From Methanobrevibacter sp. (GTDB taxonomy: Archaea; Methanobacteriota; Methanobacteria; Methanobacteriales; Methanobacteriaceae): 64,000 bases of DNA. The stretch covers positions 1-64,000 of the forward strand of contig NZ_JAFRSC010000032.1 in the NCBI RefSeq assembly GCF_017427765.1, written 5' to 3'. A model generated the notes under the pieces. That model saw only the letters and a list, made by a program, of their open reading frames with translations, was not told the origin of the DNA and ran no database searches. The position numbers and the translations under genes were made by a program. Shown here piece by piece: positions 31,503 to 32,269 of the stretch (the stretch's first letter is position 1; every line of letters begins with the position of its first letter).

Positions 31503-31567
31503 TTTCTTTTTTTTAACATTTTTGTGCAAGAATTCTCCGGCTTCTTTAAGCCGGAGAGGTTCAATTG
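31503..31567 (+). repeat. Solo IS200/IS605-like right end, copy B
   Basis: It contains a perfect 9-bp hairpin CTCCGGCTT/AAGCCGGAG (31535-31543 with 31548-31556), then AGGTTCAA, as at the right end of the complete tnpB element (21472-21501). The preceding 30 bp match copy A at 19903. No tnpB frame is attached, so it is a remnant or a small non-autonomous element. Confidence 0.65.
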
Positions 31568-31588
31568 CCCATTAAAAAAATAATTAAG

Positions 31589-31597
31589 TTTATATAT
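31589..31597 (+). promoter_or_regulatory. TATA box of the putative small RNA
   Basis: TTTATATAT with AATTAAG just upstream gives a good archaeal TATA/BRE arrangement. With the usual spacing, transcription would start near 31618-31620, exactly where a hairpin begins, and no protein reading frame follows. Confidence 0.6.
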
Positions 31598-31617
31598 GAC
31601 TTCCATAAAATTATTAC

Positions 31618-31729
31618 GCAAGAGAGTTACTTTTTGTAACCTCTATGAGATGAAATGGATTTAATGTCTGTGGGAATATTGTGAAGGGTTTTCTTCACAA
31701 TAAGACATTAAATTGAACTATTTTTTTTT
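31618..31729 (+). ncRNA. Putative structured small RNA of about 112 nt, unassigned
   Basis: Hairpin 1: AGAG-(a)-GTTAC (31621-31630) with GTAAC-CTCT (31636-31644), 5-nt U loop. Hairpin 2 is a long two-part stem: ATTTAATGTCT (31659-31669) with AGACATTAAAT (31703-31713), and TATTGTGAAG (31677-31686) with CTTCACAATA (31693-31702). Both are perfect, separated only on the 5' side by the 7-nt bulge GTGGGAA, with a 6-nt apical loop. A run of T from 31721 ends it. A TATA box sits at the right distance upstream. It matches no RNA family I recognise: no C/D boxes, no tRNA or SRP features. Confidence 0.65.
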
Positions 31730-31898: not shown

Positions 31899-32269
31899 CC
31901 GTCACTATCCATTAACATTTAGTGTGATAGTAAATAATATTTATATTCATGGCAAATGTTCGTGCAATAGTCTGCTGATGGATTTTAGTAAGTCGCATGA
32001 TGATAAATAAATATTTCAATGCTGTTTAATTTTTACATTTTCAAATTCAATATTTGTCTAATAATGAAACTGAATTATTATATATTCACTATTTTTTTAA
32101 GATAATATCTATTAATCAATAATTATTTGTTTTATTTAAAATTATTTAATGATTTTTTTATTTTATTGAATAAATGTTTTTATTAATCTTAAATTTTATA
32201 TTGTATGCCTAATAGATATATAAATTATATTCAATAATGAGTATAAAAATTTGATTAATGGTTGTTAAA
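31899..32269. other. Long AT-rich region upstream of the adhesin gene
   Basis: There is no gene here. GATAGTG (about 31848) and CACTATC (about 31905) form a spaced inverted repeat. A TATA-like ATATATAAATTAT near 32215-32228 would serve the adhesin gene. Nothing else can be supported. Confidence 0.4.

Follow-up and report, generated by a model that had tools for sequence, protein, structure and literature searches.

A probable solitary antitoxin RNA from a multicopy, type I-like toxin-antitoxin family of Methanobrevibacter

We analysed a 64,000-nucleotide stretch of Methanobrevibacter DNA (hereafter the window, on contig C55 of the 60-contig assembly G000) and found that an intergenic segment of it is likely to encode a solitary antitoxin RNA, belonging to a type I toxin-antitoxin family that is shared by Methanobrevibacter and its sister genus. 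A preliminary description of this segment had noted a small RNA gene of its own kind; we add that the RNA would be a multicopy antisense RNA, that its main seed would be the linker between its two hairpins and that its usual partner would be an adjacent gene for a hydrophobic peptide. The sequence evidence covers the family, its structure, the co-varying pairing sites, the fold-back of the Shine-Dalgarno sequence (SD), the architecture of the peptide unit and the solitary state of the window copy. From these data we infer transcription of the RNA, the translation block and the toxicity of the peptide.

The RNA gene lies between the end of hdrA (31437) and a large adhesin-like gene that begins at 32258. 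When the positions were re-read, the TATA box, the two hairpins with an unpaired linker between them, the bulge and the run of T were all found as first described (Table 1). The minimum free energy of the segment is -36.6 kcal/mol compared with -19.0 +/- 2.9 kcal/mol for dinucleotide shuffles (z = -6.0, none of 200 shuffles being as good), which bears out the earlier statement that its fold goes beyond chance; stronger proof comes from covariation over 108 aligned copies. The 3' arm of hairpin 1, GUAACCUCU, carries the anti-Shine-Dalgarno motif ACCUCU. The segment had also been described as free of protein frames and foreign to known RNA classes. Indeed, no long open reading frame (ORF) was found over it, a tRNA search gave none, and Rfam 15 returned no match in the window at the gathering threshold, with only sub-threshold matches of chance level in the segment. 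The covariance model R1 matched the window at 31614-31729 with 110.9 bits. Between hdrA and the RNA promoter, at 31535-31556, the window holds a perfect GC-rich hairpin, CTCCGGCTT-CTTT-AAGCCGGAG, at a place where other copies have GTGAGGCTTTTCCCTGAG; it probably represents either the terminator of hdrA or what is left of the lost peptide unit.

Table 1. Coordinates of the RNA gene and its parts in the window.
Feature	Position	Strand	Basis
Conserved AATAATTAAG directly 5' of the TATA box	31579-31588	+	kept in nearly all copies
TATA box TTTATATAT of the RNA gene	31589-31597	+	sequence; kept in nearly all copies
Putative small antisense RNA gene, predicted start ~31618, end within the U-tract	31618-31729	+	covariance-model match, structure covariation
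Hairpin 1, 9 bp with a 1-nt bulge	31620-31644	+	fold; compensatory changes in helices 1-3
Putative antisense seed 1 ACCUCUAUGAGAUGAAAUGG, linker region	31639-31658	+	pairing with the G002:C89 unit, site map, permutation
Hairpin 2	31660-31712	+	fold, covariation
Hairpin 2, lower stem, 10 bp	31660-31669/31703-31712	+	fold, covariation
Putative antisense seed 2 UGUGGGAA, bulge region	31669-31676	+	pairing in related loci
Hairpin 2, one-sided 7-nt bulge GTGGGAA	31670-31676	+	sequence, fold
Hairpin 2, upper stem, 10-11 bp	31677-31686/31693-31702	+	fold, covariation
U9 tract, predicted transcription stop	31721-31729	+	sequence; T-tract conserved

A DNA search revealed three further copies in the window's genome and many elsewhere in the genus. 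Altogether, well over 100 related copies occur in gut and rumen Methanobrevibacter, 4 in the genome of the window and about 120 in the genus. A first covariance model, built from 27 copies, recovered the 4 copies of the window's genome and gave about 125 matches at E <= 0.001 in 42 of the 67 genomes of the genus. The second, built from 108 copies, matched 45 genus genomes and 7 genomes of the sister genus and nothing else among the 152 genomes of the phylum that were searched; 22 of the 67 genus genomes lack the family. Against GTDB representatives, an exact pattern retrieved Methanobrevibacter records only, many of them from ruminants. Over the 108 copies, 97.0% of the base-pair cells are standard pairs (39-47% in slid controls), changes on both sides occur in 23 of the 26 base pairs, and 192 cells are doubly changed compared with 47.5 +/- 9.3 in shuffles. 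Since the alignment had been fitted to the structure, these figures are biased in the structure's favour. The margin is nevertheless very wide, and hairpin 2 is also recovered when the alignment is refolded independently. The covariance search in Methanobacteriales proposed in the preliminary description thus yielded compensatory changes in the stems. The block of conservation spans the promoter, the RNA and the U-tract and then ends, and the flanking genes vary from copy to copy. The earlier reading of the segment as an independent small RNA gene with its own promoter and U-tract is supported.

Several copies deserve mention for their surroundings. The promoter of one solitary copy (L112, G017:C63:170-284) begins directly after an apparent tRNA gene. 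A subtype with the linker CGTAACCTCGAATAATTTGATG and no recognised peptide is represented by L085 (G005:C166) and L138 (G040:C35), and in G005 an adhesin-like gene precedes each of two copies. At L086, L088, L218 and L170 the RNA alone is duplicated in tandem with a spacing of about 225-245 bp, which gives extra antitoxin copies without extra peptide units.

Upstream of about two thirds of the RNA copies, in the same orientation, lies a conserved unit of about 440 bp. It has a TATA box of its own and a leader, then an SD with a small leader ORF, a second SD (GGAGGTGA) and a hydrophobic peptide, and is followed by the RNA gene; in every unit found with the profile, the RNA lies downstream on the same strand. 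The peptides, of the type MELIIFIIGTYWFNIISIIKSLMILIKRRR and drawn from 53 distinct pairs, are mostly 25-31 residues long and comprise one hydrophobic stretch and a basic C-terminus (net charge +1.4 over the last 8 residues). Residues E2, Y11 and N14 are conserved, GTG, ATG or TTG serves as start codon, and pN/pS is 0.61 in frame compared with 0.85 and 1.23 in the other frames. No match to the peptides was found in Pfam, NCBIfam or PADLOC scans. Automatic recognition found the peptide at 55 of 118 copies; at about 24 more the unit is partial, frameshifted or associated with a tandem, 7 copies are truncated at contig ends and 32 were scored as solitary, a number that is truly lower, in the high twenties, as some of these carry a second peptide class recognised later. 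Several of the units look degenerate. One full unit is at G034:C1, about 1,576,450-1,577,070, in a genome that is probably M. smithii ATCC 35061. The peptide SD can pair with an anti-SD in the 3'-UTR, TTTCACCTC, which lies about 90-104 nt beyond the start codon, with a fold-back energy of -15.0 kcal/mol compared with -10.4 kcal/mol for shuffled 3' regions.

Pairing between the RNA and the peptide mRNA was mapped with sliding windows, comparing cognate and non-cognate pairs; whole-length duplexes showed a cognate excess without making its site clear. The duplex energies leave aside competing intramolecular folds. A signal appeared at three places only, all other windows being near zero: the linker against the peptide SD (down to -7.9 kcal/mol), the bulge against positions -59 to -38, and the 3' half of the linker against a site at about -129, a little upstream of the leader SD, where pairing is found in a subset. 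For the linker and the peptide SD, the mean energy is -23.6 kcal/mol in cognate and -14.0 kcal/mol in non-cognate pairs, and 10,000 permutations never fell below -16.3 kcal/mol (n = 53). The corresponding values are -9.4 and -5.9 kcal/mol for the bulge (permutation minimum -7.15) and -6.6 and -4.5 kcal/mol for the 3' half of the linker (permutation minimum -5.5). The permutations ignore the relatedness of the copies; an artefact of ancestry is nevertheless disfavoured, since co-inheritance would not confine the signal to these windows and the background is flat elsewhere.

The target of the bulge lies about 50 nt upstream of the peptide SD site, within the leader ORF. Examples of bulges and their targets are AUGUGGAA/UUCCACAU, AACGUUGA/UCAACGU and AAUAUAGGG/CCCUAUAU. 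Of 33 distinct bulge sequences, 30 have a run of 7 or more, and such runs are found in 86% of cognate and 49% of non-cognate pairs; run length is the weaker statistic, so that the case for the bulge rests on energies, position and permutation. A conserved GUGGGAA sequence in the bulge had been named as a test of the RNA gene. In that form the test failed: position and size are kept, and the sequence varies along with its target. The bulge had also been viewed as a pocket for a protein, a ligand or a target RNA, and of these the target RNA is very probably the right one. In 32 of 34 within-genome comparisons, a peptide mRNA is paired best by its own RNA. In G048:C15 three tandem paralogues each match their own target; this locus (L078, G048:C15:67709-69412) contains three complete units at a spacing of about 790 bp with a different linker/target pair in each, and offers a natural specificity test.

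The same RNA occurs in the seven sister-genus genomes and at a few loci of the genus with different peptides, in the same layout at the loci that were read. These second-class peptides (MSIQSKIWLALVVYLIYLWCMAFIIIMIVYKLL and kin, M-ILSKIRCLIALNIMLIWYLVLIFTLAIINLM and MESEVSITITVDLTQIIDTICLIVLLYIFI) are hydrophobic, 30-34 residues long and look unrelated to the first class. Here the linker complements the sequence immediately 5' of the peptide SD, over 16 nt in G125, 17 nt in G139 and G130, 18 nt in G057 and 19 nt in one G050 copy. Over 15 second-class and sister-genus loci the runs measure 9-19 nt, with a mean of 14.8 compared with 9.4 in non-cognate pairs, and the duplex energy is -25.6 compared with -13.7 kcal/mol (permutation minimum -21.2). 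At the sister-genus loci the complementarity extends over 12-19 nt. One of the 15, G050C31b, matches its own neighbour poorly, and no peptide was recognised at the sister-genus locus G134. This independent second class supports the antisense, toxin-antitoxin-like reading of the sequences. G125, probably M. ruminantium M1, has two second-class units (L173 and L206) with a 33-residue hydrophobic peptide; in one of them a perfect complement of the RNA bulge AUCGAGUGU, namely ACACUCGAU, is also located in the 3'UTR and not in the leader.

The window copy stands apart from this arrangement in having no peptide unit beside it. Its assembly holds only three other units, and a search of the genome for the RNA's own target found no peptide unit, whether the motif had to match exactly or could carry as many as 3 mismatches; the assembly is fragmented, with 99.96% completeness and 7.8% contamination, and may thus miss one. 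Allowing up to 3 mismatches, the 19-nt seed complement of the window RNA (CCATTTCATCTAATGGTGG) has a single other site in the genome, G000:C11:40744-40762. The closest relative is the copy at G002:C89, with 93% identity to the window RNA. The window linker can form 20 consecutive pairs, G-U included, with the peptide SD region of the G002:C89 unit, and the window bulge forms 8 pairs with this unit. This unit keeps an open peptide frame, but ACG occupies the start-codon position. In related loci, the partner of seed 2 in the peptide mRNA precedes the peptide start by about 36-75 nt. Paired with the mRNAs of the three resident peptides, the window RNA reaches combined energies of about -30, -30 and -27 kcal/mol, compared with means of -32.4 for cognate and -19.8 for non-cognate pairs, the uninterrupted runs being only 7-8 nt long; on these figures it might conceivably cross-protect against the resident peptides, a suggestion we make tentatively. 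The TATA box, both hairpins, the linker, the bulge and the U-tract are intact in the window copy, and linker and bulge are identical in copies that differ in the upper stem. We favour the reading that the window RNA would have outlived the loss of its toxin unit while keeping its specificity.

If the proposed system operates as its sequences suggest, the peptide mRNA would be made in a closed form, with the 3'-UTR anti-SD folded back on the peptide SD, which translation of the leader ORF would open. The RNA would then dock with its linker on the peptide SD and with its bulge inside the leader ORF; some copies would add a third contact, between the 3' half of the linker and a site just upstream of the leader SD. 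Docking would stop translation of both the leader ORF and the peptide, and the duplex would perhaps be marked for decay. Upon loss of the RNA, the putative membrane-damaging peptide would be set free.

The RNA might be a true antisense RNA that controls the adjacent peptide, and the latter a regulatory or stress peptide without toxicity; the system would then be one of small RNA control and not a toxin-antitoxin pair. We consider this unlikely, although toxicity is only inferred, the protein constraint is moderate (pN/pS 0.61) and the peptides match nothing in Pfam, NCBIfam or PADLOC. The spread in tandem and multiple copies, the patchy presence, the degenerate or lost units and the solitary RNAs are typical of addiction modules, as are the doubly locked SD and the fast-diversifying cognate specificity; moreover, the second class combines a different hydrophobic peptide with the same RNA logic. 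A separate question is whether the window copy itself is a decaying remnant, functionless since the loss of its unit, while the family works elsewhere. This is a possibility to be taken into account, if not the one we would expect to be true. No unit is adjacent to the copy, none of its subtype exists anywhere in the assembly, and its modest divergence from unit-bearing copies (93% to G002:C89) leaves little time for decay; against this, all its elements from the TATA box to the U-tract are intact, its seeds recur unchanged in copies with a different upper stem, and it can pair with the three resident mRNAs more strongly than the non-cognate average.

Lying between hdrA and the large adhesin-like gene, the RNA could regulate in trans the neighbouring hdr genes or the adhesin gene. 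However, hdrA is not beside the copies in the related loci examined, the flanks differ for each copy, and the one other site for the 19-nt seed complement (<=3 mismatches) is on contig C11, which together make such a role very improbable. The dispersed, multicopy, intergenic copies could also be those of a mobile-element end or MITE, the hairpins being its terminal inverted repeats. A match to a transposon end had been named in the preliminary description as grounds to abandon the RNA gene, and was looked for: the inverted repeat lies inside the element, away from its ends, and no match was found in viral contigs (exact pattern) or in phage and plasmid collections. What is conserved is a promoter, an RNA and a U-tract, after which conservation ends, the paired positions change in a compensatory manner, and bulge and linker co-vary with a separate site. 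No terminal inverted repeats bound the conserved unit, and we rejected this explanation as extremely improbable.

Should the solitary antitoxin reading and that of the family be true, the leading methane producers of gut and rumen would have a large and diversifying repertoire of membrane-peptide toxins controlled by RNA, two-seed antisense recognition would be seen evolving copy by copy, and archaeal persistence or addiction would be open to direct test. The covariance models and peptide patterns allow the annotation of more than 100 unannotated loci.

In hok/mok, an overlapping leader ORF precedes the toxin and a long-range fold-back in the mRNA involves the SD. The Methanobrevibacter unit resembles hok/sok in its leader ORF and SD fold-back; in contrast, Sok is a cis-antisense RNA of the opposite strand, whereas in Methanobrevibacter a gene of its own, downstream of the peptide, encodes a partly complementary RNA. 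CreTA of Haloarcula is likewise an archaeal toxin-antitoxin system with an RNA antitoxin, but CreT is an RNA toxin, transcriptionally repressed by Cascade-CreA, in a type VIII system (PMC12737573), and Cas dependence was not seen here. Type I definitions describe a small toxin (<60 aa), as a rule a hydrophobic membrane peptide, and an RNA antitoxin that is antisense to the toxin mRNA (PMC4147584, PMC8309996). The peptides agree with this in size, hydrophobic stretch, and SD with start codon, and the RNA in its copy-specific linker and bulge pairing; adjacency to the toxin gene is seen for the family (55 intact and about 24 partial or tandem-associated units of 118), the window copy being solitary. 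TADB 3.0 places type I toxin and antitoxin on opposite strands (PMC10767807), as in cis-antisense, hok/sok-like pairs, and here they share one strand. A 2025 paper limits the previously known type I systems to Proteobacteria, Firmicutes and Tenericutes, to which it adds a cyanobacterial case of its own (PMC12390103), and in open-access full texts we found no archaeal type I toxin-antitoxin system described.

The closest parallels are zorO/OrzO and tisB/IstR-1 of E. coli, with a hydrophobic toxin of about 29 aa, a sequestered SD and a short trans-antisense RNA (PMC8309996, PMC4147584). The zor-orz loci share with the present units the 29-aa hydrophobic toxin, the tandem loci, an SD sequestered in the toxin mRNA and a short antisense RNA acting upstream of the ribosome-binding site (PMC8309996). 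They differ in that zor and orz are divergent (PMC4147584), whereas toxin and RNA stand in tandem on the same strand in Methanobrevibacter, an archaeon, where the pairing covers the SD itself and a second seed lies in a hairpin bulge. The tisB/IstR-1 and shoB/OhsC pairs similarly have an adjacent antisense RNA with its own promoter and about 20 nt of complementarity (21 nt for IstR-1, PMC4147584), but IstR-1 blocks a distant standby site, the gene order is divergent, the seed is single, and they are not multicopy with copy-specific seeds. What sets the family apart from zorO/OrzO and tisB/IstR-1 is the tandem order on the same strand, the two seeds, one of them in a bulge, and the domain of life.
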